Source: Comamonas sp. (GTDB taxonomy: Bacteria > Pseudomonadota > Gammaproteobacteria > Burkholderiales > Burkholderiaceae_C). Taken from it: a stretch of DNA of 64,000 nucleotides. The notes beneath the pieces were generated by a model. The model did no database searches. It saw only the letters and a list, made by a program, of their open reading frames with translations, and was not told the origin of the DNA. The stretch's first letter is position 1; every line of letters starts with the position of its first letter. Shown in pieces: positions 8,440 to 39,547 of this stretch. The DNA lies in assembly GCF_009360615.1 (NCBI RefSeq), contig NZ_SPEY01000053.1:1-64000 (forward strand). Direction: 5' to 3'. The position numbers were made by a program, and so were the translations under genes.

Positions 8440-8553
8440 GCCCATTCCCGACCCACGGCGCAAGACTCTTTTGCGTTCACCCCGGGGTCGCCCCAGCCCG
8501 CACGGCCCCACAATCCTCGCCGCGCTGCACCGGCCTGCAGCCAAGGAGCGTGT

Positions 8554-9069: not shown

Positions 9070-9127
9070 CCCGGCCAGCGCTCCGCTGCGGCGCGGCTCC
9101 CGCAGGATGCCCTGGTGTCGCTGCGGG

Positions 9128-10012: not shown

Positions 10013-10060
10013 AAAAAAGGCTTCTAGCGCTTTATCTGCAAGCGCTAGAAGCTATCGATT
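10012..10060 (-). terminator. Terminator of lplT built from the dispersed repeat
   Basis: A perfect 13-bp stem, GCTTCTAGCGCTT (10020-10032) with AAGCGCTAGAAGC (10040-10052), has a 7-nt loop. Read on the minus strand it ends in CCTTTTTT and then the ATG of the next gene. The flank AGCGCTAGAAGCTATCGATT (10041-10060) is the shared core of the repeat family seen at 3467-3486 and 43951-43970. Confidence 0.88.
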
Positions 10061-10094
10061 GTGTAGTGAATGCGGCGCGATGTGCCGCAGGGCT

Positions 10095-11396: not shown

Positions 11397-11528
11397 GAAT
11401 TAGCTGTAACCGGCACCGGGTGGACCGATGCCAAGAAATAAGAGACCCCGTGGCAAGTGACTGGCGGTTATATCACGCAGGCTCCGGCTGACAGTGCCAG
11501 AATCCCACTGGTCTGATTGAGAAAAACC

Positions 11529-23165: not shown

Positions 23166-23984
23166 TCAGGCACGCCCCGAACCCTGTGCAAAGGCCAGCA
23201 CGGCCTGCAGCAGACGCTGCATGGTGGGCTGGATGCGCGCCGCGACCTCGGGCAGGTAGTCGAACGGCATCTGCTCCTGCATATAGCTGGACTGCGTCAT
23301 CTCCAGCTGCACGGCGTGAAAGCCCTGCTCCGGCTGACCATAGTTGCGCGTGATGAAACCGCCCTTGAAGCGGCCATTGAGCACGCTGGTGTGGTCCGGT
23401 GCCTGCCGTGCAATGTCCAGCAGCTGCTGGGCCAGCGCCGGCGCGCAGCTCTTGCCGTCGGCGGTGCCCAGGTTCAGGTCGGGCAGCTTGCCCTCGAAAA
23501 AGCGCGGCAGCACCGAGCGGATGCTGTGCGCATCCCACAGCATGGCCACGCCATGCTGGCTCTTGATGCGATCGAGCTCGGCGCGCAGCTGCGCATGATA
23601 GGGCTGCCAGTAGAGTTCGCGACGGCGCGCGACTTCCGCCTCGTCGGGCTCCAGGTCCTTGCTGGCATAGAGAGGCTTGCTGTCAAAGCCGTCAACCGGG
23701 CACAGCCCGGTCACACTCTGGCCCGGATAGAGGCTGGCACCATCGGGCGGACGGTTCAGATCGATGACATAGCGCGAATGCGTGGCAGCCAGAATGGATG
23801 CGCCCAGTGCCTTGGCGAAGTCGTAGAGCTGCGGCATGTGCCAGTCGGTGTCATGGACTTCGCGCCCTTCGGGCGTGAGCTTGGCCGCAATGTCGGCCGG
23901 CACATGGGTGCCGGTATGCGGCATGGAAATCAGCAGCGGTGCCGTACCCTGGTGAAAGACAAAGGGGGCGATGGCTTGGCTCAT
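23166..23984 (-). CDS. hutG: N-formylglutamate deformylase HutG
   Basis: Final step of the five-step Hut route: N-formyl-L-glutamate to glutamate plus formate (272 aa). It belongs to the N-formylglutamate amidohydrolase family, with LLISMPHTGTHVP near the N-terminus, DTDWHMPQLYDFA, SRYVIDLNRPPDG and the DAHSIRS motif. The start is MSQAIAP, preceded by a GAAGAGAG purine tract. It lies 41 bp after hutF, and the two together define the deiminase/deformylase branch rather than formiminoglutamase. Confidence 0.93.
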   Translation of the reverse strand: MSQAIAPFVFHQGTAPLLISMPHTGTHVPADIAAKLTPEGREVHDTDWHMPQLYDFAKALGASILAATHSRYVIDLNRPPDGASLYPGQSVTGLCPVDGFDSKPLYASKDLEPDEAEVARRRELYWQPYHAQLRAELDRIKSQHGVAMLWDAHSIRSVLPRFFEGKLPDLNLGTADGKSCAPALAQQLLDIARQAPDHTSVLNGRFKGGFITRNYGQPEQGFHAVQLEMTQSSYMQEQMPFDYLPEVAARIQPTMQRLLQAVLAFAQGSGRA

Positions 23985-24025: not shown

Positions 24026-25450
24026 TCAGGCGTTCTGCAGCAATGCCTTGCGGGTCTGCACAAAGCCTTGCTGAGCGACTTCGTGCAGCGCATGACGGCC
24101 TGCCTGCACGCGCTGCTGGCCGCGAACCCAGACTTCGGCAATGGCCGAAGTGCGATGGCTGGCAAACACATGGGCCGCATGACCGCTGTCGGCAGGCAGC
24201 CCGTTGAGGGCCACATGGCGGGCATCGAGCACCACGAAATCGGCCTGCTGGCCCACGGCCAGACCGGCAATGGCGCGGCCCGATGCCTGGGCACCGCCGG
24301 CCACCGCCTTCAAGGTCATGGAGGTCGCCACCTGGGGCTGGGCGCCGCCGCCAAGCACATTGCGCTGGCGCAGGCTCAGGCGCTGGCTGTATTCGAGCAT
24401 CAGCAGCTCTTCGGCGGCATTCACCGAGGCATGGCTGTCCGAGCCAATGCCCCAGCGGCCCCCATGCCTGAGCCACAGCGGCATGTCGAAGATGCCGTCG
24501 CCGAGATTGGCCTCGGTGGTGGGACAGATGCCGGCCACGGCCGCGCTGCGTGCCGCGCCTGCATATTCCTCGGGCGTCATGTGCGTGGCATGGATCAGGC
24601 ACCAGCGCGCATCGACGGGGGCATGGTCGAGCAGCCATTGCACGGGGCGCTGACCGCTCCAGGCCAGGCAGTCATCCACCTCCTGGGTCTGCTCGGCGAT
24701 ATGGATGTGCACCGGAGCCTTGGGCAGCATGGCGTGCAGGCCTGCGAGCGCGGCCTTGAGGCTGTCCGGCGGCACGGCACGCAGCGAGTGCGGAGCCAGG
24801 CCCAGAGCTGCCTGCTGCGCCCTGGTCACGGGCTCCAGCTGCTGCAGCAGGGAAAGCATGCTGTCCGTGCTGCGAATGAAGCGGGCCTGATCCTCGCGAG
24901 GCGGCAGCCCCCCGAAGCCGCTGGTCTGATAGAGCACGGGCAGCAAGGTCATGCCTATGCCCGTCTTCTGCGCCGCACGCAGCAGTGCCAGGGACAGGCT
25001 GGCATCGTTGGCATAGGGCTTGCCACCGGCATCATGGTGCACATAGTGGAACTCGCACACCGAGGTGTAGCCCGCCTCCAGCATCTCCAGGTACAGCCAG
25101 GTCGCAATCGCCTCCAGCGCCTCGGGCGTCATGCGATTGGCAAATCCGTACATCAGTTTGCGCCAGCTCCAGAAGCTGTCCTGCGCCTGACCGCGGAATT
25201 CGGTCAGCCCGCCGAACGCGCGCTGGAAGGCGTGCGAGTGCAGATTGGGCATGCCCGGGATCAGCGGGCCGGCCGCCTTGGCGGCGTCCTCCGCCTCCCC
25301 GGCCTCGCCGCTTTGCGGGTCCACATCGGTCAGCACTTCGGTCAGCTGGCCGCTCTCGTTCCAGCTCAGCAGGACATTGCGCGCCCAACCCGTGGGCAGC
25401 AAGGCGTCTGCGGCAAACAAGGTACGCGAAATGGATGAGGATGCAGTCAT
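24026..25450 (-). CDS. hutF: Formimidoylglutamate deiminase HutF
   Basis: Amidohydrolase-superfamily enzyme turning N-formimino-L-glutamate into N-formyl-L-glutamate and ammonia (474 aa). Metal-site motifs are NLHSHAFQR near residue 70, the HIHIAEQ histidine near 235, and the aspartate in GIGSDSHAS near 320. The length is normal for HutF. It lies between the HisC-like aminotransferase (42 bp) and hutG (41 bp) in the long hut operon. Confidence 0.94.
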   Translation of the reverse strand: MTASSSISRTLFAADALLPTGWARNVLLSWNESGQLTEVLTDVDPQSGEAGEAEDAAKAAGPLIPGMPNLHSHAFQRAFGGLTEFRGQAQDSFWSWRKLMYGFANRMTPEALEAIATWLYLEMLEAGYTSVCEFHYVHHDAGGKPYANDASLSLALLRAAQKTGIGMTLLPVLYQTSGFGGLPPREDQARFIRSTDSMLSLLQQLEPVTRAQQAALGLAPHSLRAVPPDSLKAALAGLHAMLPKAPVHIHIAEQTQEVDDCLAWSGQRPVQWLLDHAPVDARWCLIHATHMTPEEYAGAARSAAVAGICPTTEANLGDGIFDMPLWLRHGGRWGIGSDSHASVNAAEELLMLEYSQRLSLRQRNVLGGGAQPQVATSMTLKAVAGGAQASGRAIAGLAVGQQADFVVLDARHVALNGLPADSGHAAHVFASHRTSAIAEVWVRGQQRVQAGRHALHEVAQQGFVQTRKALLQNA

Positions 25451-25492
25451 GGTGATGGTCTCTGTGAGGCGAAAAAGATCAAACCGCGCAGC

Positions 25493-26653
25493 TCATGCAG
25501 TCACGCGCTCAGTCTGCTCCATCGCAGCGAGCAAAGCCAGAACAAAACGCGCGTTGTCTTTCTCGGTACCTATGGATACGCGCAGAAAATTTTCGAAACC
25601 GGGCTCCTTCCAGGGCTTGACGATCACGCCCTGCCTGAGCAGGGCCTCCGTCACCGGTGCATTGGGACGGCCCAGGTCGAGAAACAGGAAGTTGGCAACC
25701 GAAGGCGCAATGCGCAGGCCTTGCAGCGGCTGGCCCGGCCCTGCCAGCGCCAGCAGCTGCCTGCGCAGATCCTCGCGCAGCGCCACCGTGGTCGCCACGC
25801 CGCTGCGCATGTGCGCAGGATCGTTCCAGGCGGCCAGCGCCGCGCGCTGCGCCGCCATGTTCACGTTGAAGGGCGAGCGCACCTTGTCCATCAGGCTCAC
25901 CAGCTCGGCGCTGTCGGCCATGCCGTAGCCCACGCGCAGGCCGGCCAGGCCCCAGGCCTTGGAGAAGGTGCGCAGCACGATCCAGGGCCCGACCCGCGCA
26001 TCCAGCATGGCCAGCACATCGGGGTAGTCATCGTCATGCAGCGCGTATTCGTAATAGGCCTCATCCACCACCAGCACGGTGTTGGCGGGCGTGGCCTCCA
26101 GCACCTGCGCAAACTGCGCCGCATCCATCATGCAGCCCACGGGGTTGGACGGGTTGGGCAGGAAGGCGATCTTGGGGGCCTTGGCCACGGCAGCGCACCA
26201 GGCGCTCACATCGAAGCCCAGTCCATCGTTCAGCTCGAGGAGCTCGACCTCCGCGCCCATCATCTTTGGATAGATTTCGTGCAGGCCGAACACGGGACGC
26301 TGGGTCACCACCAGATCGCCGGGGGCGAGAAAGACCTCGCAGAGAATCTTGATCAGGTCTTCCGAGCCGTCGCCGAACACCAGACGCCCGGCGGGCAGCC
26401 CGGTGCGCTCGGCAATGGCTTCGCGCAAGGCCGTGCAGTTGGCATCCGGATAGTTGCCCACATCGTTGGCCACCTCGGCAATCGCCCGGCGCACCGAGGC
26501 GCTGGCACCGAAGGGATTTTCATTGCTGGCCAGTCGCGCGATATCGGTCACGCCATAGCGCGCCCGCACCGCTTCATTGGACAGGCCGGCGTTGTACGCG
26601 GGCAGCGGGCGCACCTGGGCACGGGCCAGCGAAGCCACCAGAGAATTCGTCAT
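25493..26653 (-). CDS. HisC-like aminotransferase inside the hut operon
   Basis: Class I/II PLP aminotransferase of the histidinol-phosphate/aromatic type (386 aa). Visible are LASNENPFG at about 41-49, NPSNPVG, DEAYYEYA, and the PLP lysine in TFSKAWGLAGLRVGYG. Its ATG overlaps the stop of the FAD dehydrogenase (ATGA), so the two are translated together. A true biosynthetic hisC would normally be among his genes. Between hutI and hutF, next to a hydroxyacid dehydrogenase, a histidine/imidazolepyruvate transaminase role is more likely. Histidine:2-oxoglutarate aminotransferase activity was, as I recall, described for Pseudomonas (Comamonas) testosteroni. The reaction assignment is inference. 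Confidence 0.8.
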   Translation of the reverse strand: MTNSLVASLARAQVRPLPAYNAGLSNEAVRARYGVTDIARLASNENPFGASASVRRAIAEVANDVGNYPDANCTALREAIAERTGLPAGRLVFGDGSEDLIKILCEVFLAPGDLVVTQRPVFGLHEIYPKMMGAEVELLELNDGLGFDVSAWCAAVAKAPKIAFLPNPSNPVGCMMDAAQFAQVLEATPANTVLVVDEAYYEYALHDDDYPDVLAMLDARVGPWIVLRTFSKAWGLAGLRVGYGMADSAELVSLMDKVRSPFNVNMAAQRAALAAWNDPAHMRSGVATTVALREDLRRQLLALAGPGQPLQGLRIAPSVANFLFLDLGRPNAPVTEALLRQGVIVKPWKEPGFENFLRVSIGTEKDNARFVLALLAAMEQTERVTA

Positions 26654-28038
26654 AGATCAAACACCTTTCCGGGGTTCATCAGGCCCAGGGGATCGAGGGC
26701 CCGCTTGATGGCCCGCATCGCCGCCAGCTCTGCGGGCGTGCGGCTGTTGCTCAGATAAGGCTTTTTGTGCAGGCCGATGCCGTGCTCCGCGGAGACGCTG
26801 CCCTGCATCTCGCCCACGATGCGGTAGAGAAGCTCCTCCACCTGCTCGCATTCGCCGTTGACGGTCTTGCCATCCACCGAGACATGGAGATTGCCGTCGC
26901 CCACATGGCCGAAGTACAGCGCCTGGTGACCGGGCCAGCGCGCGGCAAAGGCCTGCATGCAGGCTTCGGCAAAGCGCCCGATGTCGGCCTGGGGCAGGCT
27001 TACATCGAAGTTGATTGCGGGATGCATATTGTTGTTGAGCTCGGCCGGTGCCTCGCGCAGCTTCCACAGCTGCTGCACCTGAGCGCCCGACTGGGCCACG
27101 ATGGCATCGAGCACCTCGCCGGCTTCCATGGCTTCCTCTAGCACCTGCTGCACATCGCCTTGCAGCTGCGCCTCGTCCTTGCCGTCCACATTGATCAGGG
27201 CCAACAAGGGGTAGCGCTGCTCAAAAGGCGCAGCGAGCTTGAGCCAGGCCATGGAGGCCTGCACAAAGCTGTCCCACATCAGCTCATAGGCCGCGACGCT
27301 GTTGCCGAAGTGCGATTGCATGCGCTTGAGCACGGCCAGCGCGGAGTCGAAATCGGGCATGGCCACCAGCGTCGTGGCCGTGGCCTGCGGCGCCGGACGC
27401 AGACGCAGCAACACGCGCGTGATGATGCCCAGCGTGCCTTCGGCACCGATGAAGAACTGCTTGAGGTCGTAACCCGTGTTGTTCTTGATCATGGGACGCA
27501 ACATGGGCAGCACCGTGCCGTCGGCCAGCACCACCTCCAGGCCCAGCACCTGCTCGCGCATCATGCCGTGCTGCAGCACGCCGTTGCCGCCCGCGTTGGT
27601 GGAGACATTGCCGCCGATCTGGCAGCTGCCGCGCGCGCCGAGATCCACGCCGAACACCATGCCGACATCGACGGCAGCCTCCTGCACGGCCTGCAGGGTG
27701 ACGCCGGCCTGCACCTGCATCAGCCCGGTCTGGGCATCGATGTCCTCGATGCGGTTCATGCGATCCAGCGACAGCGCGACAGCGCCCTCCGTAGGAACCG
27801 CGGCACCGGCCAGCCCGGTCAGCCCACCCTGCGGAACCACCGCAATCCTGTGGGCGCTGCACAGACGCATGACGGCGCTGACTTCCTCCGTGGTGCGTGG
27901 GCGCACCAGCGCCAGCGGCTGCTGGGGCGGCGTGCCGCTCCAGTCGGTGCGGCTACGCTGCGGCGTGTCCGTGCCGCGCAGCGCCACATCGGCGCCCAGG
28001 GTGGAAATCAGTTCATTGAGAAATTGTTCGTGAGACAT
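26650..28038 (-). CDS. FAD-linked 2-hydroxyacid dehydrogenase in the hut operon
   Basis: FAD enzyme of the D-lactate / D-2-hydroxyglutarate dehydrogenase family (462 aa). The PCMH FAD domain is seen as VVPQGGLTGLAGAAVP (68-83), GSCQIGGNVSTNAGGNG (137-153) and GAEGTLGIITRV (198-209). The catalytic and metal motifs of the C-terminal half are HVGDGNLH (378-385) and EHGIGLHKK (418-426). GAAAGG lies about 6 nt before the ATG. It is 25 bp after hutI and overlaps the aminotransferase by 4 bp. The proposed substrate is imidazolelactate, giving imidazolepyruvate for the partner transaminase; the family is certain, the substrate inferred. Confidence 0.82.
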   Translation of the reverse strand: MSHEQFLNELISTLGADVALRGTDTPQRSRTDWSGTPPQQPLALVRPRTTEEVSAVMRLCSAHRIAVVPQGGLTGLAGAAVPTEGAVALSLDRMNRIEDIDAQTGLMQVQAGVTLQAVQEAAVDVGMVFGVDLGARGSCQIGGNVSTNAGGNGVLQHGMMREQVLGLEVVLADGTVLPMLRPMIKNNTGYDLKQFFIGAEGTLGIITRVLLRLRPAPQATATTLVAMPDFDSALAVLKRMQSHFGNSVAAYELMWDSFVQASMAWLKLAAPFEQRYPLLALINVDGKDEAQLQGDVQQVLEEAMEAGEVLDAIVAQSGAQVQQLWKLREAPAELNNNMHPAINFDVSLPQADIGRFAEACMQAFAARWPGHQALYFGHVGDGNLHVSVDGKTVNGECEQVEELLYRIVGEMQGSVSAEHGIGLHKKPYLSNSRTPAELAAMRAIKRALDPLGLMNPGKVFDL

Positions 28039-28063
28039 CAGCAACCTTTCGCGCTCCCCGCTT

Positions 28064-29326
28064 TCAGGCTTTGGCTTGCTGCGCAATCCGGCCCTGACGC
28101 ACCACCGTACAGTCCGGCTTGCTGCCGAACCAATAGGCCAGCTCTGCAGCCCGCTGCACGGGCCAGAGCACGAAATTGGCGGGACGGCCCACGGCAATCA
28201 GGCCTTGCTCGTCCTGCAGGCCCAGCGCCTGCGCGGCGTGCCGGGTGATGCCGGCCAGGGCCTCGGGAACCGTCAGACGGAACAGCGTGCAGGCCATATT
28301 GGCCATGAGCAGCAAGCTCAAGCACGGGGAGGTACCCGGATTGTGATCGGTAGAAACGGCCATTGGGACCTTGGCAGCCCTTAATTCCTCAATCGGAGGC
28401 ACTTGGGTGTCGCGCAGCGTGTAGAAGGCACCTGGCAGCAGCACGGCCACGGTACCGGCCTTCTTCATCTCGGTGATGCCATGTTCGGACAGGTGCTCGA
28501 TATGGTCGCAGGACAGCGCGCCATAGCGGGCCGCGAGGGCAGCACCCTCCATATTCGACAGCTGCTCGGCATGCAGCTTGACGGGCAGGCCCAATGCCTT
28601 GGCCGCCTCGAAGACCTGCTCGGTCTCGGCCAGCGAGAAGGCGATGCGTTCGCAGAACACATCAACGGCATCGATCAGGCCTTCAGCGGCCAGCGCCGGC
28701 AGCATGACCTGACAGACCAGATCCGTGTATTCCTGGCTGCGGCCCGCATACTCTGGCGGCAGCGCATGAGCCCCCAGAAAGGTGGTGCGCACGGTCACGG
28801 CACACCGCTCGCCCAGGCGCCTTGCGGCACGCAGCTGCTTGCGCTCGTGCTCCAGGGCCAGTCCGTAGCCCGACTTGATCTCTATGGCCGTCACGCCTTC
28901 GGCCAGCAACTGCTCCAGACGCGGCAGCGCCAGCGCCACCAGCTCGTCCTCCGACGCTTCGCGCGTGGCCCTGACGCTAGAGACGATGCCGCCGCCGGCC
29001 CGGGCCACTTCTTCGTAGCTGGCACCGGCCAGGCGCATCGCGAACTCGTTGGCGCGCTCGCTGCCATAGACCAGATGGGTGTGGCAGTCGATCAGGCCCG
29101 GCGTGGCCAGGCGCCCTGCGCCGTCGTGCCTGGGCAGCGCCTGGTATTCGGCAGGCATGGCATGCTGCGGTCCCACCCAGACCATGCGGCCTTGCTGCAC
29201 CACGATGCAGGCCAGCGTGCCTTCGGGAATATCCGCCACCTCGGAGACATACAGCTCCGGCGCCAGACGCAGGTTGTGCCAGCAGCCGTCGGCGGAGACT
29301 GCGGGATGGGGATTAGCTTGCGCCAT
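28064..29326 (-). CDS. hutI: Imidazolonepropionase HutI
   Basis: Third Hut step: imidazolone-5-propionate to N-formimino-L-glutamate (420 aa from MAQANPH). Amidohydrolase motifs are the metal-binding [35 protein letters not shown] and [15 protein letters not shown] lies 8 nt before the ATG. It is 139 bp after hutD and 25 bp before the FAD dehydrogenase. Confidence 0.95.
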
Positions 29327-29375
29327 GGCGATGCTCCTCGTGTTCGATGACGACAATCCAGGCCATGAAACTCCT

Positions 29376-29398
29376 GATTTCATAGCTACCAGCGCCTG
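29376..29398. repeat. Half copy of the dispersed palindrome between hutD and hutI
   Basis: Read on the minus strand this is GGCGCTGGTAGCTATGAAAT, the same GCGC-N4-AGCTAT core as the elements at 3467-3486, 10041-10060 and 43951-43970. Only one half is recognisable. Confidence 0.5.
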
Positions 29399-29465: not shown

Positions 29466-30032
29466 TCAGGTGTGCGCTGTCAGGCTGACCAGGATCAGTC
29501 TGGCATCCTCGCCTTGCGCCACCAGCGACTCGGCCCCGGTACTGCTCCACCACAGGCCCTGACCGGTCTCCAGCACCCGGCCGTCGGCAGCTTTCCAGCT
29601 GCCCTGCAGCACCATGCAAAGTCCTGCAGCGCTCAGCCCCACCTCGGCCTGGCCGGCGAGCAGCTCCAGCCGTGCCGACCATTGTCCACGCCGGGTCATG
29701 ACATTGAAATCGCTGGACGGCCCGCCCTGCAGATCGCAATCGAGAGCCGTATCGCCCGAAAAGGCGAAGGGCTGCCAGCGATCGGTCAATGCGTGCTCGA
29801 CCTGGCCCTGGACGCTGTGCAGCCGCACCCCGTCGCCATCGAGCAGCATGATCTGGCGGTCTATGCCCGGGAATGCCGAAAACGGGCCGGCCTGGGCAAT
29901 CGTGGCCACGCTCACGCGCCAGCCAAAGCTGTCCATGCCCGCGCCCTGCGGCCAGCAGGCAATCTCGCGCGTGCTGCCGCCCCCGTTCTTCCACGGGCTG
30001 GGCGCAATCTGGTTCAGGTCAAAGCGTTGCAT
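29466..30032 (-). CDS. hutD: HutD/Ves family protein
   Basis: Cupin-fold HutD family protein (188 aa). In Pseudomonas fluorescens HutD has been proposed to limit hut operon activity, possibly by binding a pathway intermediate; the enzymatic role is unknown. Family features are PSPWKNGGGSTREIACWP at about 12-29, GWRVSVATIAQAGPFSAFPGIDR, and a central DFNVMTRRG. It sits between hutU and hutI but with unusually long gaps on both sides (155 and 139 bp) and no visible Shine-Dalgarno sequence, so it may be weakly expressed. Confidence 0.88.
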   Translation of the reverse strand: MQRFDLNQIAPSPWKNGGGSTREIACWPQGAGMDSFGWRVSVATIAQAGPFSAFPGIDRQIMLLDGDGVRLHSVQGQVEHALTDRWQPFAFSGDTALDCDLQGGPSSDFNVMTRRGQWSARLELLAGQAEVGLSAAGLCMVLQGSWKAADGRVLETGQGLWWSSTGAESLVAQGEDARLILVSLTAHT

Positions 30033-30187: not shown

Positions 30188-31909
30188 TTACTTGACCATC
30201 GGCAAGTTGAGCCCATGGCGCTTGGACGCTTCCACGGCGATCTCGTAGCCGGCATCGGCATGGCGCATCACGCCGGTGGCGGGATCGTTCCAGAGCACGC
30301 GGTTCAGGCGGGCCGCAGCTTCGTTCGTACCATCGGCCACGATCACAACGCCGGCGTGTTGCGAGTAGCCCATGCCCACGCCACCGCCGTGGTGCAGGCT
30401 GACCCAGGTGGCGCCGCCCGCCGTGTTGAGCAGGGCGTTGAGCAGCGGCCAGTCGGAGACGGCGTCGGTGCCGTCCTTCATGGCTTCGGTCTCGCGGTTG
30501 GGGCTTGCCACCGAGCCGCAGTCCAGGTGGTCGCGGCCGATCACGATGGGCGCCTTGAGTTCGCCGTTCCTGACCATTTCATTGAAGGCCAGGGCCGCCT
30601 TGTGGCGCTCGCCCAGACCCAGCCAGCAGATGCGCGATGGCAGGCCCTGGAAGGCGATGCGCTCCCTGGCCATGTCCAGCCAGCGGTGGGTGTGCTTGTT
30701 CTCGGGGAACAGCTCCTTGATCTTGGCATCGGTCTTGTAGATGTCTTCAGGGTCGCCGGACAGCGCCACCCAGCGGAACGGACCCTTGCCCTCGCAGAAC
30801 AGGGGACGGATGTAGGCGGGCACGAAACCGGGGAAGTCGAAGGCGTTCTTCACGCCTTCGTCCAGGGCCACCTGGCGGATGTTGTTGCCATAGTCCACCG
30901 TCGGGATGCCCATGGCCTGGAAGTCCAGCATGGCCTGCACATGCTGGGCGCAGCCCTGGGCGGCGGCCTTCTTGAGCGTGGGGTGCTGGCCGGGGTCGGC
31001 CGCAGCGGCGTTCCATTGCTCCACGGTCCAGCCCACGGGCAGATAGCCGTTGATCAGATCATGGGCGGAGGTCTGGTCGGTCACGATGTCGGGTCGGATG
31101 CCGCCGGCCTTGGCGCGCCTGACCAGCTCGGGCAGGATTTCGGCCGCATTGCCCAGCAGCGCGATGGAGACGGCCTCGCCCTTTTCGGTGTGATGCTTGA
31201 TCAGGGCCAGCGCGTCGTCGATATCCTTGGCCTGCTTGTCCACGTAGCGGGTGCGCAGGCGGAAGTCGATGCTGCTTTGCTTGCATTCGATGGCCAGCAC
31301 GCAGGCACCGGCCAGCACGCCGGCCAGCGGCTGCGCGCCACCCATGCCGCCCAGGCCGGCCGTGAGAATCCACTTGCCGGTCAGGTCGTTGTTGTAGTGC
31401 TGGCGACCGGCTTCGACAAAAGTCTCGAACGTGCCCTGAACGATGCCCTGGGCACCGATGTAGATCCAGCTGCCGGCCGTCATCTGGCCGTACATGAACA
31501 GGCCCTTCTGGTCCAGCTCGTTGAACTTCTCCCAGTTGGCCCACTTGGGCACCAGATTGGAGTTGGCCAGCAGCACGCGTGGCGCATCGGGGTGGGTCTT
31601 GAACACCCCCACCGGCTTGCCCGACTGGATCAGCAGCGATTCGTCGGCTTCGAGCTTCTTGAGCTGGGCCAGGATCTCGTCATAGCACTCCCAGTTGCGG
31701 GCCGCGCGGCCGATGCCGCCGTAGACGACGAGCGCCTTGGGGTTCTCGGCCACGTCCGGGTCCAGATTGTTCTGGATCATGCGGTAGGCCGCTTCGGCGA
31801 GCCAGTTCTTGCAGTGCAGCTCGCTGCCGCGCGGGGCGCGGATTTCTCGGCTGGCGTCGTAACGGGGGTCTTGCTTGGCTGCGCTGATGATGGCGTCGTT
31901 GGCGTTCAT
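30188..31909 (-). CDS. hutU: Urocanate hydratase HutU
   Basis: Second Hut step: urocanate plus water to imidazolonepropionate, using tightly bound NAD as an electrophile (573 aa). The NAD-binding segment is [14 protein letters not shown], and [17 protein letters not shown] with [15 protein letters not shown] is the conserved active-site region. AAGGA lies 8 nt before MNANDAI. It follows the NCS1 permease by 31 bp and is followed by a double-hairpin repeat before hutD. Confidence 0.97.
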
Positions 31910-31940: not shown

Positions 31941-33413
31941 TCAGCCGGCTTGCACGGCGTAGGTGGAACCGGCAAAGCTCTTGCCTGCGTCTGTCGGCGC
32001 AGTTTGAACCTGGCTGGGGTAAATCATCTGGCCGGGCACGTTCATGGTTTTCCTGGCCAGCGGGTAGTAGATGAGCGAGGTGACGATCAGGCTGACGATC
32101 CACGAGATATCGGCGCCGTTCATGGCCTTGGCCAGCGGGCCCACGTACATGGCCTGGTTGATGAAGGGAATCTGCACCACGACGCCCATCACATAGCAGG
32201 ACAGGGCCGTCCAGTTGTAGGCCCCATAACGACCCTGGCTGTCGTAGAGCGCCGGGATGTCCACTTTTTCCTTGGAAACCAGGTAGTAGTCCACCAGGTT
32301 GACGGCGCTCCAGGGAACGAACACGGTGAGCAGCAGCAGCACGAAATTCTTGAACGTGGCCAGGAAGTTGGAGCTGGCCAGCAGGGCCACCAGGACCGTC
32401 ACCAGCACAAAGCCCAGGATATAGAGCAGACGCGATGTCGCAGTGAACTGCTTTTTCCGGTTGAAGGCGCTGACCGTGGTCAGCACGGTCATGAATCCGC
32501 CATAGGCATTGAGGCAGTTCACGGTGAGCTTGCCGGTGACGATGACCAGGTAGATCACCACCGCCAGCGGGCCGGCGAGCTGGCCCATGAAGCCGACCTG
32601 GTTCTTGATGAAGTTGGCGCCCAGCGCGGCGACCAGCACGCCGAAGCTCATGGCCAGTTGCGAGCTGATGACGCTGCCGCTGAACGTGGTCCAGAAGGTG
32701 GCGGCGGTCGAGGTCCTGGTGGGCAGATAGCGCGAATAGTCGGCCACATAGGGGGCGAACGTCATCTGCCAGCCGGCCGACAGGGCCATGGCGGTCAGAA
32801 AGCTGGCCCAGGTGAAAGGCTTCTGGCCGAACGCCGAGACCACATCGAACTGATGGCACAGCTGCCAGGCCAGATAGCCAAAGCCCAGTATGCCGACCAC
32901 GGTGGAGATCCGCCCCACCACATGGATGAGCCGGTAGCCCACCACGGCGACCAGGGCCGTGAGCGCGCCGAAGATGAGGATGCCGGCCGCGGGGCTATGA
33001 AAACCGAACATCAGATTGATGGCCTGGCCCGAGAGCACGGTGCCCGTGGCGGCGAAGCCCACATACATCAGGATCACCAGGACCAATGGCAGGGCCGCGC
33101 CCTTGACGCCGAACTGCACGCGGCTGGAGATCATCTGGGGCAGACCCAGGCGCGGCCCCTGGGCCGAGTGCAGCGCCATGACGATGCCGCCGAGGATGTT
33201 GCCGATCAGCAGACCGAGGATGGCCGTCATGGCCTCGGCACCGAACACCACGGCCAGGGCGCCGTCCACCACCGCCGTGATCTGCATGTTGGCACCGAAC
33301 CAGAGGGTGAACTGGCTGGAGGGCGTGCCGTGGCGCTCGCTCTCCGGAACCATGTCGATGGTTCGGGTCTCGATGGCGCCAGAGGAACCCAGCGTTGCTG
33401 TATCAATACTCAT
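31941..33413 (-). CDS. NCS1 family permease, candidate urocanate/histidine importer
   Basis: Inner-membrane nucleobase:cation symporter-1 (CodB-like) protein, 490 aa with about 12 helices. [20 protein letters not shown] near the N-terminus corresponds to the family's FLWFGAN region. [10 protein letters not shown] is the conserved helix-6 region. GGAGC precedes the ATG. As first gene of the operon with hutU, and divergent from hutC, it most likely imports a pathway substrate (urocanate, histidine or a related imidazole) rather than cytosine. The solute is inferred. Confidence 0.82.
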
Positions 33414-33450: not shown

Positions 33451-33493
33451 TGTATGAACAACTCTCAGGAATTTCCATTAAGTTGTATATACG
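33451..33493. promoter_or_regulatory. Two HutC-type boxes between the permease-hutU operon and hutC
   Basis: TGTATATACG (33484-33493) matches 9 of 10 positions of the TGTATATACA palindrome found intact at 39502-39511. TGTATGAACA (33451-33460) matches 8 of 10. The box starts are 33 bp apart, close to three helical turns. They lie in the 145-bp divergent region, so one repressor could control both directions. Confidence 0.7.
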
Positions 33494-33558
33494 AATTTTG
33501 TGATTTACTCCCACCCACGTCAATCATCTAGACAGCTTTTCTAATCCACACAAACCCT

Positions 33559-34275
33559 ATGTCGCGAACCGATACCACCGCTGCCGTACCTGCGTTCCAG
33601 CGCATCAAAGACCATGTGCTGCAGCAGATCCACAGTGGCGTATGGCAGGAAGGCCAGGCCATTCCCAGCGAAGCCGCCCTGGTCAAACAGTTCAATGTGG
33701 CGCGCATGACCGTCAACCGTGCGTTGCGCGAGCTCAGCGACGAAAAGACCCTGACGCGAATCCAGGGCTCGGGCACGTTCGTGGCCCAGCAGAAGTACCA
33801 GGCCACCCTGGTCGAGTTGCGCAATATCGCGGACGAAATTGCGGCACGCGGCCACCGCCATCGAGGGGAGCTGCAGCGGCTCGAGCGCTGCAAGGCCGAC
33901 GCCGCGCTGCTGCGCCAGTTCGAGCTGAACACCGCCACCCATCTGTTCCACTCCGTGGTCGTGCACTTCGAAAACGATGTCCCCATTCAGGTCGAGGACC
34001 GTTATGTGAACCCGGCGGTGGCTCCCGACTACCTGAGCCAGGACTTTGCGAGCCAGACACCCAATGCCTATCTGGTGCGCGTGGCTCCGCTGCAGGGCGT
34101 GAGTTTCTCCATCGAGGCGAGCATGCCCACGCCAGAGGTGGCGGAGCTTTTGCGCATGGAGGTCACCGAACCCTGTCTGGTGCTGCGCCGCAGAACCCGC
34201 TCCCAGGGGCAGGTGGCCTCGGTGTCGGCCCTGTGGCACCCGGCATCGCGCTATCAGTTCGCCGGCAGTTTCTGA
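33559..34275 (+). CDS. hutC: HutC-like GntR repressor 1
   Basis: GntR/HutC family regulator (238 aa). The N-terminal winged helix-turn-helix is seen as IPSEAALVKQFNVARMTVNR at about 34-53, followed by LTRIQGSGTFVA. The UTRA effector domain includes the HutC signature VPIQVEDRYVNPAVAP and NAYLVR. HutC binds urocanate in other bacteria. It is divergent from the permease-hutU operon with two operator-like boxes between, the classical arrangement for the main hut repressor. No clear Shine-Dalgarno precedes the ATG. Confidence 0.88.
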   Translation: MSRTDTTAAVPAFQRIKDHVLQQIHSGVWQEGQAIPSEAALVKQFNVARMTVNRALRELSDEKTLTRIQGSGTFVAQQKYQATLVELRNIADEIAARGHRHRGELQRLERCKADAALLRQFELNTATHLFHSVVVHFENDVPIQVEDRYVNPAVAPDYLSQDFASQTPNAYLVRVAPLQGVSFSIEASMPTPEVAELLRMEVTEPCLVLRRRTRSQGQVASVSALWHPASRYQFAGSF

Positions 34276-34380: not shown

Positions 34381-35937
34381 TCAGGCCGCGTGGCTGGGGA
34401 GAATGCTCTGCAACACCTCGGGCCAGGCGGTTTCCAGCGCCCAACGGCGCATGATTTCGATATCGGGCGCCAGGTAGCGGTCCTTGTCCAGATAGGGCAC
34501 CTGGCTGCGGATCAGCGCGTACTGCGCCTCCATCAGCGGCGAACTCTTGAGCCGGCGGTCGAAGTCCATGCCCTGGACGGCGGCCATGGCCTCCACGCCC
34601 ACGATCACCGCCGTGTTCCTGGCCATGTCGGCCAGACGGCGCGCGCCATAGGTGGCCATGGAGACATGGTCTTCCTGGTTGGCCGAAGTAGGCAGGCTGG
34701 TCACGCTGCTGGGGTGCGCCAGGCACTGGTTTTCGGCCGCCAGTGCCGCCGCCGTGACCTGCGCGATCATGAAGCCCGAGTTGACGCCGCTGTCCTCGAT
34801 CAGAAAGGCCGGCAGACGCGACAGTCCGGTGTCCAGCAGCAAGGCCATGCGCCGCTCGGAGATGGCGCCGATTTCGGCGATCGCCAAGGCCAGTATGTCG
34901 GCGGCGAAAGCCACGGGTTCCGCGTGGAAGTTGCCGCCCGAGATCACGTCGCCGTTGTCGAACACCAGCGGATTGTCCGAGGCGGCATTGGCTTCGATGA
35001 CCAGCACGCGTGCAGCATGGCTGAGGTTGTCCAGGCAGGCGCCCATGACCTGCGGCACGCAGCGGATGGAGTAGGGGTCCTGCACGCGCCCGCAGTTGGG
35101 GTGCGAGGGATCGATGGCGCTGCCGTCCAGCAGGGAGCGCACGGCGGCCGCCACGGCAATCTGGCCGTGCTGGCCTCTGGCCTCGTGAATGCGCGCGTCG
35201 AAGGGCTTGATGGAGCCCTGGATGGCTTCCAGCGTCAGGCAGCCGGCCACCAGGCCTGCGGCCAGCACGCTTTCGCCCTGGAACAGACCCGCCAGCGCCA
35301 GCGAGGTGGAGACCTGGGTGCCATTGAGCAGTGCCAGCCCTTCCTTGGGGCCGAGCACAAAGGGTTCCAGGCCGATATGTTTCATGGCGTCACGGCCGGA
35401 GACCAGCTTGCCGTCTATCTTGGCCTGCCCTTCACCGATGAGCACGCAGGCCAGGTGCGACAGCGGCGCCAGATCGCCCGACGCGCCCACAGAGCCCTTG
35501 GAAGGGATCACGGGCAGGACATCGGCATTGGCCAGCGCCAGCAGCGCGTCCACCAGTGCCGTGCGGGCCCCCGAATGACCACGCGCCAGGCTCACGGCCT
35601 TGGTGGCCAGCACCAGGCGCACCACATGATCCGGCAGCGGATCGCCAGTGCCCACGCTGTGGGAAAGCACCAGATTGCGCTGCAGCTCGGCCAGACGCTC
35701 CTGGGCGATCTTGGTCGAGGCCAGCTTGCCGAAGCCGGTATTGATGCCATAGACCACCTGGTCCTCGTCGACGATGTGCTGCACATGTGCCTGGGCCGCT
35801 CGCATGGCGTCATAGGCGGACTGGGCCATGCTGAGCTGCACGCCGCCGTCCTGGATGCGACGCAGCTGCGCCAGTGTGACCTCGCCCGGATGCAGTTCCA
35901 GTGGGGACGTCGAGAGCGCTTGGGTGGTGGTGTTCAT
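34381..35937 (-). CDS. hutH: Histidine ammonia-lyase HutH
   Basis: First Hut step: L-histidine to urocanate plus ammonia (518 aa). The MIO prosthetic group forms from A152-S153-G154 in [28 protein letters not shown] at 61-73 supplies the catalytic tyrosine. It is separated from the other hut enzymes and is instead the last gene of the minus-strand block ABC importer-hutC2-hutH. A HutC-type box overlaps its ribosome-binding region at 35947-35956. Confidence 0.97.
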
Positions 35938-36003: not shown

Positions 36004-36759
36004 TCAGCCGCCGTGCACCGAATCGGTTCGGAAACGGCTACCGAGTCGGTAGCGCATGCCCGGATGCACGCAGTGCACCCAGGTGATGGGGACGCCACGC
36101 AGCCAGGTCCGGCGCGTCAGCATCAGGCAAGGCTGGTCGATGGCCATCCGCAGCAGCCGGGCCTGCTCGGCCGTCGGCAGAATCGCATCGACCACATGTT
36201 CGATCTGGTCGTACTGCACATTGCGCACCAGATAGACCGAGGGTTGTACGGCGGAGAAATCCTGGTCCATGAATTCGGGGACCAGACGCGGGTTCACATA
36301 ACGGTCTTCGAGCTGAACCGGAACTTCGTTCTCGAAGTGCACGCCATGCAGATGAAACACCGAGGCTCCGACCGCGAGGTCCAGCGCTGCGGCGACCTCG
36401 GGCGAGGCGGACTCGCGGCGCATATCGAGCAGCTCGAAGCGATGGTCGTGCCCGCGCTGGGTGATCTCTTCGCCGATATTGGCGATACGCAGCAGTGTGG
36501 AACGCGGCTTCTCCTCGGCCACGAAGGAGCCGACCCCCGCCACACGAACGATCACGCCCTGCTCGGCCAGCTCGCGCAGCGCACGGTTCACCGTCATGCG
36601 CGCCACGCCGAACTCGTTGACCAGCTCCTGCTCGGAAGGCACGCGTGCACCGGCCGCCAGCGAACCGTCGCCGATCTTGCGCAGCACATGGTCCTTGACC
36701 TGCTGATACAGCGCGACCGGCATCTGGGCTGCAACAGTGGTTCTGCGCCGGGCATTCAT
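36004..36759 (-). CDS. HutC-like GntR repressor 2
   Basis: GntR/HutC family regulator (251 aa). The helix-turn-helix is VPSEQELVNEFGVARMTVNR at about 40-59, and VPVQLEDRYVNPRLVPEF with SVYLVR is the UTRA effector region. It is clearly related to hutC at 33559-34275: the RMTVNRALREL and EDRYVNP blocks match. It lies 10 bp after the ABC ATPase and 66 bp before hutH. This placement suggests it controls uptake and hutH, and it probably recognises the same type of box as hutC. Confidence 0.85.
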   Translation of the reverse strand: MNARRRTTVAAQMPVALYQQVKDHVLRKIGDGSLAAGARVPSEQELVNEFGVARMTVNRALRELAEQGVIVRVAGVGSFVAEEKPRSTLLRIANIGEEITQRGHDHRFELLDMRRESASPEVAAALDLAVGASVFHLHGVHFENEVPVQLEDRYVNPRLVPEFMDQDFSAVQPSVYLVRNVQYDQIEHVVDAILPTAEQARLLRMAIDQPCLMLTRRTWLRGVPITWVHCVHPGMRYRLGSRFRTDSVHGG

Positions 36760-36769
36760 GGGGCGAACC

Positions 36770-37549
36770 TCAGTGCGCCGCCGCAGCCAGGGACTCGGCG
36801 CGAATCTCTTCCGTCAACCGGGCCTTGAGCTCCATGAACTCGGGCGAGGTCTTGACGGTGTAGTGGCGCGGGTGCGGAAGGTTGACCGGAATGTCGGCCT
36901 TGATGCGGCCCGGACGCGCACTGAAAACGGCTACGCGATTGGCCATGAAGATGGCTTCGTCGATATCGTGGGTCACGAACATCACCGTCTTGCGCTCGGC
37001 TTCCCAGATGCCCAGCAGCAATTCCTGCATCAGCACCCGCGTCTGGTTGTCCAGAGCACCAAAGGGTTCATCCATGAGCAGGATCTTGGGGTCGTTGGCC
37101 AGTGCACGCGCAATCGCCGTGCGTTGCTGCATGCCGCCGGACAGCTGCTTGGGATAGTGATTCTCGAACCCACGCAAACCCACCTTGGCAATGAAGTATT
37201 CGCTGCGCTCTTTCTGCACGGCTTCGCTCACGCCTTTCTCGCGCAGCCCGAAGCGGATGTTCTGCGCCACGGTCAGCCAGGGAAACAGGGTGTAGCTCTG
37301 AAACACCATGCCGCGGTCGGCACCGGGCTCCTGCACCAGCTTGCCGTCCAGCAGAACCTGTCCGGTGGTCGGGAAGTCCAGACCCGCGACGATGCGCAGC
37401 ATCGTCGATTTGCCACAGCCCGAGGGCCCGAGAATGGTCACGAAATCGTTCTCGCGGACCTCGAAATCCACGGGCAGCAGGGCCTGGGTGCTGACGCCTT
37501 TGTGGCTGGTGAAGGTGCGCGAAACACCTTGAATGGACAGCTGATTCAT
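36770..37549 (-). CDS. NitT/TauT-type ABC importer, ATPase
   Basis: ABC ATPase (259 aa) of the nitrate/taurine/sulfonate importer class. Walker A is GPSGCGKST (41-49), the signature is LSGGMQQR, Walker B is ILLMDEPFGALD, and the H-loop is VTHDIDEA. Its ATG overlaps the permease stop (ATGA). It works with the permease and binding protein upstream. Location inside the hut region points to an imidazole compound as cargo. Confidence 0.85.
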   Translation of the reverse strand: MNQLSIQGVSRTFTSHKGVSTQALLPVDFEVRENDFVTILGPSGCGKSTMLRIVAGLDFPTTGQVLLDGKLVQEPGADRGMVFQSYTLFPWLTVAQNIRFGLREKGVSEAVQKERSEYFIAKVGLRGFENHYPKQLSGGMQQRTAIARALANDPKILLMDEPFGALDNQTRVLMQELLLGIWEAERKTVMFVTHDIDEAIFMANRVAVFSARPGRIKADIPVNLPHPRHYTVKTSPEFMELKARLTEEIRAESLAAAAH

Positions 37550-38412
37550 CACAGGGCACTCCACTCGAACATGCGACGGTTGATGGTTTTGAAAATGAAG
37601 TCCGACACCAGACCGATGAGCCCGATGACGATGATGCCGAAGATGATCTGACCGGTGTTGAGCAGTGCCTGACTGTCGGTGATCATGTGGCCGATGCCCG
37701 AGGACGAGCCGATCAGCTCGGCGACGATCACATAGGTCCAGGCCCATCCCAGCACCAGACGCAGGGTTTCCGCGATACCCGGGGCAGCCCCGGGAATCAG
37801 CACGCGCTTGACGATGCCGGTATTGCTGGCGCCCAGGGTGTAGGCGGCCTCCACCAGATCCTTGCGCGCGCCCCCCACGGTCACGGCCACCATGAGCGTG
37901 ATCTGGAACACCGAGCCGATGAAGATGACCAGCAGCTTCTGGGCCTCGCCCACGCCGGCCCAGAGAATCAGCAGTGGAATGAAGGCCGATGCGGGCAGGT
38001 AGCGGCAGAACGAGACAAAGGGCTCGAAGAACGCTTCCACGGGCTTCCAGGCCCCCATGGCGATGCCCAGCGGCACGGCCACGATGCTGGCCAGGATGAA
38101 GCCGCCCATGACACGCCATACGGTCATGCCGATGTCATGGTGAAAATCGAACTCCGTGAACAGCAGAATGCCTTCGCGCAGCATCGTCAGCGGGCTGGCG
38201 AGAAAGGTCGGCGAGACCAGTCCGCCGAAAGTGACGGCGGACCAGACCAGCACGAACAGCAGAAAGAAGCCCGTGCCGAGCAGCCACTTGGCCTTGGGGC
38301 TGACAGGCTCCAGAGGGGCCATGTAGCGCCGGCGTGCCGGCCGTACGGAAGGCGATGCCACCTGGACCGATGCGGGTGATGCAGACTTGATAGAAGGTGA
38401 TACCGCTTCCAT
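37549..38412 (-). CDS. NitT/TauT-type ABC importer, permease
   Basis: Integral membrane permease (287 aa from MEAVSPS) with about six helices and the BPD_transp_1 EAA loop region (VEAAYTLGASNTGIVKRVLI). AGAGG lies 7 nt before the chosen ATG. It begins 17 bp after the binding-protein stop and overlaps the ATPase start. The same family moves sulfonates, nitrate and pyrimidine precursors, so specificity cannot be read from it. Confidence 0.85.
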   Translation of the reverse strand: MEAVSPSIKSASPASVQVASPSVRPARRRYMAPLEPVSPKAKWLLGTGFFLLFVLVWSAVTFGGLVSPTFLASPLTMLREGILLFTEFDFHHDIGMTVWRVMGGFILASIVAVPLGIAMGAWKPVEAFFEPFVSFCRYLPASAFIPLLILWAGVGEAQKLLVIFIGSVFQITLMVAVTVGGARKDLVEAAYTLGASNTGIVKRVLIPGAAPGIAETLRLVLGWAWTYVIVAELIGSSSGIGHMITDSQALLNTGQIIFGIIVIGLIGLVSDFIFKTINRRMFEWSAL

Positions 38413-38429
38413 GTGCGACCTCTTTGCGC

Positions 38430-39398
38430 TTACTTGATGAAGCTGGCGTCGTACATGACGCCGTAGTTCTCGGGAATGCTGCGAATCACGCCGGCTTCCT
38501 TGAGGATGGCGGCAGACTCCTTCATGAAAGGCAGCAGGTCGCTGGCAAAGAACTTCTGATTGGCTTCCTTGTCCGACCATTTCAGAAAGGCTGCCGATTT
38601 GCCGAACTGCTCACCGCTTTGCTTCACGGCAGCGCCCATGATCTCGTAGCTCTTTTCCTTGTCGGCATTGATCATGGAGATGGCGTCGAAGTAGGACTGG
38701 GTCAGTGCCCTGGCGGCTGCCGTGTTGGCCTTGAGCCACTTGGGATCGCAGCCCACGGTATCCATCACCATCGGGTAGTCGATGGTGGTGGCCAGGATCT
38801 TTCCGGCCGCCGGGTTGGCGCGCACGGTGGACAGATAGGGCTCGTACGTCATGGCCGCATCGTTCTGCCCGGACACAAAGGCCTGGGCTGCCGGCTGGGG
38901 CTCCAGCGATACGGTCTTGATGTCCTTCATCGTCATGCCGTTCTTGTTCAGCATCCAGGCCAGACCGAAGTAAGGAGCCGTACCCGGCGCGCTGACGGCG
39001 ACGGTCTTGCCCTTCAGGTCGGCAAAGCTCTTGACGTCGTTGCGCACGGCGATGCCGTCCGCGCCATAGGACTTGTCCATCTGGAAGATCTGCACGATCG
39101 GCACACCATTGGTGTTCCAGGCCACATGCGTCTCCACGGTGGTGGCCGCGCATTGCACGGCACCCGAGGCCAGGGCCAGATGCCGGTCCTTCTGGGGAAT
39201 CATCTTGAGTTCGACATTGAGGCCGTTCTTCTTGAAGATTCCTGCCTTGTCCGCAAGCGTCAGCGGTGCAAAGCCCGTCCACCCCGACATGCCCAGGACG
39301 ATCTTGGTCTCCTGGGCCGCTGCATGCTGTGCAGCAGACACTAGTACGGTTGCGGCCAATGCCAATTGCCAAGTTGGAACGCGGCGTGTCGATTTCAT
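38430..39398 (-). CDS. NitT/TauT-type ABC importer, substrate-binding protein
   Basis: Periplasmic SsuA/NMT1-like solute-binding protein (322 aa) with a Sec signal peptide ending near AQHAAAQ. Typical parts are LADKAGIFKKNGLNVEL, the SGAVQCAATTVET region and DLKGKTVAVS. It is the first gene of the ABC-hutC2-hutH block, and two HutC-type boxes lie 104-160 bp upstream. It could bind histidine, urocanate, imidazolelactate or imidazolepropionate. Confidence 0.82.
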   Translation of the reverse strand: MKSTRRVPTWQLALAATVLVSAAQHAAAQETKIVLGMSGWTGFAPLTLADKAGIFKKNGLNVELKMIPQKDRHLALASGAVQCAATTVETHVAWNTNGVPIVQIFQMDKSYGADGIAVRNDVKSFADLKGKTVAVSAPGTAPYFGLAWMLNKNGMTMKDIKTVSLEPQPAAQAFVSGQNDAAMTYEPYLSTVRANPAAGKILATTIDYPMVMDTVGCDPKWLKANTAAARALTQSYFDAISMINADKEKSYEIMGAAVKQSGEQFGKSAAFLKWSDKEANQKFFASDLLPFMKESAAILKEAGVIRSIPENYGVMYDASFIK

Positions 39399-39501
39399 GG
39401 GACTCTCCTCGGTCTATGCCAGAGCAGCTCGGTTGTTGATGCGGACTTGCTAGCTTTGCACGATGGTGCAGGCAGCGAAGTTTGTGACTGCTGATCAGGC
39501 A

Positions 39502-39511
39502 TGTATATACA
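39502..39511. promoter_or_regulatory. Perfect HutC-type palindrome
   Basis: TGTATATACA is a perfect 10-bp palindrome and the best example of the box family in this window. It matches the TGTATA-rich half-site style I know for HutC operators. It lies 104 bp upstream of the binding-protein gene. Confidence 0.7.
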
Positions 39512-39547
39512 GGCTTACCCGAGCGTCATAGGCGAGAGCTGCTGCAG

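Follow-up and report, generated by a model that had tools for sequence, protein, structure and literature searches.

A putative imidazolelactate-to-histidine branch encoded by a gene pair in the hut cluster of a Comamonas strain

A gene pair between hutI and hutF

The stretch of DNA analysed here (the window) comprises 64,000 nucleotides of Comamonas sp. (RefSeq assembly GCF_009360615.1, contig NZ_SPEY01000053.1, positions 1 to 64,000) and carries a cluster of genes for histidine utilisation (hut). The interval between hutI and hutF in this cluster holds a gene for a flavin adenine dinucleotide (FAD)-dependent 2-hydroxyacid dehydrogenase, referred to below as the FAD protein, and a gene for a HisC-like aminotransferase (AT), which overlap by 4 bp (Table 1). 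An earlier note, made from the sequence alone, had placed the pair there as part of the hut operon and had proposed that it converts imidazolelactate to histidine. Its coordinates proved to be right, and agree with the open reading frames (ORFs) and the ATGA junction. At this junction (GGAAAGG...ATGA) the TGA stop of the dehydrogenase gene shares four bases with the ATG of the AT gene, with GGAAAGG upstream. The dehydrogenase gene is separated from the upstream hutI by 25 bp and the AT gene from the downstream hutF by 42 bp, and a scan of 25450-28064 gave no promoter-like or terminator-like sites. The likely ATG start of the dehydrogenase is at 28038, although the ORF could be extended to a TTG at 28197. 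Judged by position, overlap and these short gaps, the assignment of the pair to the hut operon is supported.

The order of genes on the minus strand is ABC (ATP-binding cassette) importer, hutC, hutH, NCS1-type permease, hutU, hutD, hutI, FAD protein, AT, hutF and hutG, with a GntR/UTRA gene on the plus strand between hutH and the permease. HutC, HutH, HutU, HutI, HutF and HutG all exceeded their NCBIfam cut-offs, and HutD was recognised by PF05962. Relatives in C. testosteroni JL40 are 98% (FAD protein) and 96% (AT) identical and keep the same order, and the ratio of non-synonymous to synonymous substitution rates (dN/dS) was about 0.05-0.2 for the pair against the relatives in L048, L061 and L136 (L and G numbers are our handles for loci and genomes). 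These ORFs are thus not due to chance, because close relatives occur in the same order and dN/dS is low. The JL40 locus (L048 4752-6000) has approximately 1.25 kb between AT and hutF, as against 42 bp in the window.

The aminotransferase belongs to a distinct clade of HisC-like proteins

The AT scored 608 bits against NF003496 (PRK05166), above the cut-off of 540, and 270.1 bits against the hisC model TIGR01141, narrowly below the cut-off of 276.55. In the order sample, seven of 250 genomes scored 493-620 bits against NF003496 and the next best score was 328, which separates clade members well from other HisC proteins. The next best match to the AT within the genome (26-28% identity) is a HisC encoded with HisB and HisH (G000:C83), which passes TIGR01141 with 290.8 bits; because this separate HisC sits with HisB and HisH, the hut-operon AT is not needed for biosynthesis. 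Three grounds led to rejection of the AT as the biosynthetic HisC: the his operon has a HisC gene of its own, the AT scores below the TIGR01141 cut-off, and it falls in the distinct clade described below.

Relatives were gathered by AT similarity alone, from named genomes (80 loci kept) and from order, family, genus and phylum samples. A quick maximum-likelihood tree, made without bootstrap, was built from 71 rows, 42 of them entered as AT-type and 29 as other HisC, the latter being L003 and 28 random draws with L064 among them. The 42 AT-type rows and L064 formed one group of 43 (Shimodaira-Hasegawa-like approximate likelihood ratio test value 97, branch of 0.78 changes per column). L064 had been put with the other HisC proteins by identity threshold (41% or more), but falls in the clade by the tree, and the residue counts follow the tree. 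In an alignment of 125 distinct proteins, E98, H125, K346 and W348 were present in all 38 clade members, while the 87 non-clade HisC proteins had Y125 in 86, R346 in 86, D or N at position 98 in 86, and W348 in none. The window AT thus lacks the HisC-typical Tyr125 and Arg346 and carries the signature E98 H125 V172 K346 W348.

The AT resembles HisC in its fold, in the lysine that binds pyridoxal phosphate (PLP), K232, and in R240 and R358, all three residues being invariant in the 125 aligned proteins; an AlphaFold2 model had a confidence score (pLDDT) of 95.4 and its closest solved structures are HisC. It differs from HisC in having, like the rest of its clade (38/38), H125 and W348, and in its gene context. 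The NCBIfam label of NF003496, histidinol-phosphate transaminase (equivalog), is probably a misannotation for this clade.

The predicted pocket of the dehydrogenase

A domain search with the FAD protein gave PF01565 and PF02913 only, and found no NAD(P)-binding domain. Against TIGR00387 (glcD, glycolate oxidase subunit) the protein reached 283.8 bits, far under the cut-off of 567.9. Among characterised relatives of known structure, human D-2-hydroxyglutarate dehydrogenase (D2HGDH; 6lpn, E 8.6e-86) comes closest. According to the report on that enzyme (PMC7801405), Arg386, His434, His441, Glu475 and His476 bind the C1 carboxylate, hydroxyl and metal, and the C5 carboxylate is held by Thr390, Lys401, Tyr432 and Asn443, mutation of Lys401 abolishing activity. 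Mouse LDHD is reported (PMC10589216) to use D-2-hydroxyacids with hydrophobic side chains and not to use L-isomers.

Human D2HGDH numbering was placed on an alignment by matching letters and spacing. The five catalytic residues are kept in the window protein (R328, H378, H385, E418 and H419), which thus shares with human D2HGDH and mouse LDHD all of the residues for the lactate moiety and the metal. In contrast, the four second-carboxylate residues of human D2HGDH (390, 401, 432 and 443) are replaced by A332, N343, F376 and S387. The same pattern of A390 (G in L152), N401, F432 and S or T443, with the five catalytic residues intact, was found in 22 of 22 distinct hut-type dehydrogenases. A further homologue in the same genome, L011, keeps K401 and N443 and has L at 390. 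The hut-type site also differs from that of mouse LDHD, which is hydrophobic (V101, W351, S365 and I407, against A/G, N, F and S/T here). A neutral, roomier and polar pocket, as predicted here, would suit an imidazole side chain. The D-2-hydroxyglutarate-type label given earlier is doubtful for the substrate, the second-carboxylate residues being replaced; D-2-hydroxyglutarate dehydrogenase itself was rejected on these pocket residues (N343 and S387 stand where the human enzyme has K401 and N443, and A and F take the places of T390 and Y432).

Genomic context of the aminotransferase clade

The neighbourhoods of 37 clade loci (L048-L064 and L136-L155) were compared with those of 63 other-HisC loci (L065-L127, mean 18.5 kb), the latter mostly from other phyla. 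Context was scored within 10 kb by tblastn, a match requiring an E value no higher than 1e-12 and 60 or more aligned residues. Six of the 37 clade loci are less than 15 kb long, being cut short by the ends of contigs or at retrieval; L018-L024 and L128-L135, short stretches of genomes of which longer stretches were also taken, were excluded. A core hut gene was found at 26 of the clade loci and at one control locus (L079, a 23% hutF match), hutH at 20/37 against 0/63, hutU at 17/37 against 0/63, and a 2-hydroxyacid dehydrogenase at 26/37 against 0/63. Both a hut gene and a dehydrogenase were present at 20 clade loci. The tally repeats two genomes (L148/L149 and L150/L151) and a near-identical species pair (L049/L137); without the repeats L149, L151 and L137 the counts are 25/34 for a core hut gene and 23/34 for the dehydrogenase, kinship being otherwise uncorrected.

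Across the genus, AT was present in 22 of 53 genomes and hutU in 30, with both in 20 (Fisher p 1.9e-5, kinship ignored), and for 18 of the 22 AT genes hutU is no more than 15 kb away. The family sample gave AT in 9/150 and hutU in 75/150, eight of the nine AT genomes having hutU (Fisher p 0.034, kinship ignored) and six having the two genes within 10 kb. AT was found in 11 of 299 genomes of the phylum sample, and in three of 369 of the class sample, which added no lineage beyond G442, itself already known from the phylum sample. Both the histidase family and hutU were present in 17 of the 18 AT-bearing genomes examined, the other, G093, having neither. In Delftia acidovorans NBRC 14950 (L049) the FAD and AT genes again lie between hutI and hutF. 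In each of four genomes (G119, G442, G424 and G175) the histidase family is represented by two genes, of which one is no more than 10 kb from AT; in G119, G442 and G424 the surroundings of AT further contain a dehydrogenase, genes of an ABC transporter and regulators resembling HutC. The clade thus recurs beside hut genes and 2-hydroxyacid dehydrogenases; the two genes of the pair are nonetheless separable, and two genomes hold the pair without hutU (see below).

A second type of hutU, scoring about 700 bits rather than about 900 or more, was seen at G695:C11:46089, G717:C53:50833 and G721:C1:1842696, and may act on another urocanate. That of G717 is one of the 30 counted for the genus and lies on another contig.

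One aminotransferase with different dehydrogenases

The dehydrogenase beside AT is not of one kind. In Comamonadaceae, G119 and G442 it groups with the window FAD protein, whereas the neighbours of AT in Acetobacter (L057), Komagataeibacter (L058), Actibacterium (L063) and G424 (L153) share a different branch with L012 and L013, two paralogues from the genome of the window (99-100% support, midpoint root; a long-branch warning applies to L063, L011 and others). Acetobacter and Komagataeibacter also have a gene for a flavin mononucleotide (FMN) L-lactate-dehydrogenase-like protein directly beside hutH, and in Martelella alba (L055) AT is directly followed by such a gene and flanked on its opposite side by a regulator resembling HutC. 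These FMN proteins matched an NCBIfam subfamily at 314-328 bits, under the cut-off of 376. That different dehydrogenases, of both D- and L-type, adjoin one kind of aminotransferase is the strongest argument for the two enzymes acting in series. More tentatively, at a little short of even odds, the clade marked by H125, K346 and W348 would be the gene family of histidine:2-oxoglutarate aminotransferase (Enzyme Commission number EC 2.6.1.38), anchoring a modular imidazolelactate pathway of Pseudomonadota in which the AT is constant and the dehydrogenase is swapped. Comamonadaceae and their relatives would use an FAD subfamily dedicated to D-imidazolelactate, Actibacterium and the acetic acid bacteria a D-enzyme resembling LDHD or GlcD, and the opposite enantiomer would be served by an L-enzyme with FMN, in some cases along with a dedicated importer, regulator and second histidase.

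Relation to published activities

Two activities bear on the pair: EC 2.6.1.38 itself, and an imidazolyl-lactate:NADP (nicotinamide adenine dinucleotide phosphate) oxidoreductase, which we take to be EC 1.1.1.111. Both are placed by the literature in the species group to which the window belongs. The title of Coote and Hassall (1969) names an NADP-linked imidazolyl-lactate oxidoreductase of acidovorans, that of Coote and Hassall (1973) names imidazolyl-L-lactate and P. testosteroni, and a 2019 paper credits EC 2.6.1.38 in Delftia acidovorans to the 1969 work. An earlier candidate for a histidine transaminase, TTE2137, is disputed in a 2014 review, whose authors, in answer to a referee, point to its place in a his operon and regard it as a HisC. 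The literature searched, mostly non-subscription papers, gave no gene assigned to EC 2.6.1.38 or to imidazolelactate degradation.

The window AT shares with EC 2.6.1.38 of Delftia acidovorans and Comamonas testosteroni the species group and the proposed reaction; the difference is that the activity is known biochemically and the AT is linked to it by sequence and context. As EC 2.6.1.38 is attributed to Delftia acidovorans, and as the pair occurs in the hut cluster of that species (L049), the histidine transaminase in dispute has a strong candidate in the AT. The same cannot be said of the FAD protein. It is proposed to carry out the same chemical step as the oxidoreductase, but that enzyme is NADP-linked by its title, in contrast to the FAD-oxidase domains alone of the window protein, and the 1973 title specifies L-lactate, whereas those relatives of the window protein that were assayed in the cited reports act on D-forms. 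It is thus unlikely that the FAD protein is the published dehydrogenase; instead, it would probably be a second, D-specific enzyme. The suggestion that the pair is the missing link to the biochemical work of the 1970s is, in its original form, not supported for the dehydrogenase, and the doubt voiced with it, that a D-type dehydrogenase may not match L-lactate, was well placed. Near the Delftia cluster only two proteins were checked for an NADP oxidoreductase (an AraC-type regulator and an NMT1-like fragment), so that its absence there is not established.

A proposed side entrance to the Hut pathway and its alternatives

Imidazolelactate is a product of histidine fermentation and is excreted by fermenting microbes. 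We infer the substrates, direction, stereochemistry and electron acceptor of the pair, and consider it the best reading, with a probability of roughly 60%, that the pair would form a side entrance to the Hut pathway, leading from D-imidazolelactate through imidazolepyruvate to histidine and HutH. The FAD protein would oxidise an imidazole-2-hydroxyacid, most likely D-imidazolelactate, to imidazolepyruvate and pass electrons on, either into the respiratory chain or to some other acceptor, making the step effectively one-way. The HisC-like AT would then transfer the amino group of glutamate to imidazolepyruvate, yielding L-histidine, with glutamate resupplied by the Hut pathway itself, and HutH, HutU, HutI, HutF and HutG would break down the histidine. 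The imidazolelactate-to-histidine branch proposed from the sequence alone is thus supported in part: well in its AT half, by the clade and the hut linkage, and in its dehydrogenase half for the D-isomer only.

Several observations weigh against this side entrance. Six of the 37 clade loci have hut genes only, six a dehydrogenase only and five neither, and in G650, G512, G443 and G463 (genus f88 g328), which have two to four histidase-family genes, none is within 10 kb of AT. Four loci of the same genus have the AT-FAD pair and a Rieske oxygenase with no core hut gene within 10 kb; at one of the four, L149, the confirmed neighbours include a reductase and a binding protein of the amino-acid type. 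Among hut genes, the FAD gene occurs without AT in L160 and L162, AT without the FAD gene in, for example, L142, L159 and L163, and neither in L161. The Rieske-linked loci without hut genes and the separability of the pair therefore indicate a module that is not bound to Hut alone. Within the genus of the window, the FAD gene, AT and hutG are kept in G093 and G715, both of which lack hutU; G093, a single contig rated 100% complete, also has no gene of the histidase family. In G093 a RecQ gene and a GntR/UTRA gene directly precede the FAD gene, with an AlkB-type gene and metH after hutG; since the same flanks enclose the whole hut region of the window, G093 seems to have undergone a deletion that left the pair and hutG in place, and its pair may make histidine for other uses or act on something else. 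At the level of residues, F432 is also present in the paralogue L011, and the sole non-clade HisC with Lys346 is the genome's own his-operon HisC, so that K346 alone is no mark of a change of substrate. Lastly, the published work, as seen in titles, concerns an NADP enzyme and L-lactate, and the window protein is an FAD protein of the D-2-hydroxyacid family.

The alternative that survives best, although unlikely, is that the true substrate is a different but related imidazole compound, such as histidine or imidazolelactate bearing an N-methyl or hydroxyl group, and that plain imidazolelactate is used only on the side. A Rieske oxygenase match lies within 10 kb at eight of the 37 clade loci and a DIOX_N-type 2-oxoglutarate (2OG)-Fe(II) oxygenase at four, and such oxygenases often demethylate or hydroxylate; neither was matched within 10 kb at the Comamonas, Delftia, Acidovorax, Variovorax and Hylemonella loci, and for plain imidazolelactate the window cluster needs nothing beyond the hut enzymes. 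Much less probable are two further explanations. The AT could be a surplus HisC for biosynthesis that found its way into the operon, with the dehydrogenase an unrelated passenger, as its fold, its nearest solved structures and the NCBIfam family name would have it, but the his-operon HisC passes TIGR01141 where the AT does not, the AT belongs to a clade with its own signature, and the linkage to hut recurs. Alternatively, the pair could run towards disposal, from histidine to imidazolepyruvate and another product, when Hut is repressed or absent. This would accommodate the retention of the pair without hutU in G093 and G715. The FAD enzymes of this family, however, oxidise hydroxyacids, and reduction of imidazolepyruvate would be unfavourable. 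In most hosts, moreover, there would be no point in disposal by enzymes made from the same operon as hutH and hutU. Least probable of all is a D-2-hydroxyglutarate dehydrogenase supplying 2-oxoglutarate to an AT that removes surplus histidine as imidazolepyruvate: human D2HGDH is the nearest structurally characterised relative, but Lys401 has become Asn, Thr390, Tyr432 and Asn443 are replaced too, and it is L011, the other homologue in the genome, that keeps K401 and N443.

If the side entrance from D-imidazolelactate is correct, there would be a gene for the Delftia histidine transaminase activity still disputed in 2014, the histidinol-phosphate transaminase name of NF003496 would be corrected for the clade, and the Hut pathway would have an entry point, recurrent across several families, through which imidazolelactate from histidine fermenters could serve bacteria as food. 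A biochemically described pathway would thereby gain candidate genes and a modular architecture.

Features of the hut region and variant loci

Table 1. Coordinates of the gene pair, of the surrounding hut region of the window and, in the last two rows, of the loci that retain the pair with hutG
Feature	Position	Strand	Remarks
FAD-dependent 2-hydroxyacid dehydrogenase (D-2-hydroxyacid subfamily), proposed D-imidazolelactate dehydrogenase	26650..28038	-	462 aa; PF01565 + PF02913
HisC-like PLP aminotransferase, proposed histidine:2-oxoglutarate aminotransferase (EC 2.6.1.38)	25493..26653	-	386 aa; NF003496 608 bits
hutG, N-formylglutamate deformylase	23166..23984	-	272 aa; TIGR02017 365.3 bits, cut-off 278.75
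hutF, formimidoylglutamate deiminase	24026..25450	-	TIGR02022 581 bits
hutI, imidazolonepropionase	28064..29383	-	TIGR01224 467.6 bits
hutD	29466..30032	-	PF05962
hutU, urocanate hydratase	30188..31909	-	TIGR01228 947.9 bits
NCS1-type permease, probable importer for the hut pathway	31941..33413	-	PF02133
Second GntR/UTRA regulator, divergent	33559..34275	+	PF07702 + PF00392
hutH, histidine ammonia-lyase	34381..35937	-	TIGR01225 663.5 bits; would use up histidine made by the branch
hutC, repressor	36004..36759	-	TIGR02018 299.7 bits
ABC importer: ATPase (36770-37549), permease, NMT1-type binding protein (38430-39398)	36770..39398	-	PF00005, PF00528, PF09084
FAD gene, AT and hutG retained together, L136 (G093)	7366-10780
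FAD gene, AT and hutG retained together, L156 (G715)	8123-11519

The ABC importer encoded upstream of hutC, which includes a binding protein of the NMT1 type, is a candidate for the uptake of urocanate or imidazolelactate. Relatives of both its ATPase and its permease lie beside hut genes in L049, L050, L051, L053, L137, L139, L142, L147, L159 and L162. Two near-matches to a HutC operator palindrome occur in the window, one at 33482-33495, where the permease and GntR genes diverge, and one at 39500-39513; three of 100 shuffles gave two or more.

Rieske oxygenase matches within 10 kb of a clade AT were seen in L062, L064, L139, L149, L151, L153, L154 and L155 (Pfam-checked in L064, L149 and L153), and it is possible that they demethylate a methylated imidazole compound which then enters the same branch. 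In L057 (13141-14103), L058 (13102-14058), L140 (11622-12593) and L164 (453-1415) an oxygenase of DIOX_N/2OG-Fe(II) type adjoins AT or hut genes (Pfam-checked in L057 and L140). HisD-like dehydrogenases lie near a clade AT in L056 (14380-15711), L148 (11604-12926) and L150 (7035-8441). L056 and L148 also have a short-chain dehydrogenase/reductase there, and L148 has a zinc alcohol dehydrogenase as well; these may be catabolic clusters for histidinol or a related alcohol. Closely similar AT and hut clusters were present in two metagenome-assembled genomes labelled Proteobacteria (L062) and Marinimicrobia (L064), and the second label may be a binning error.

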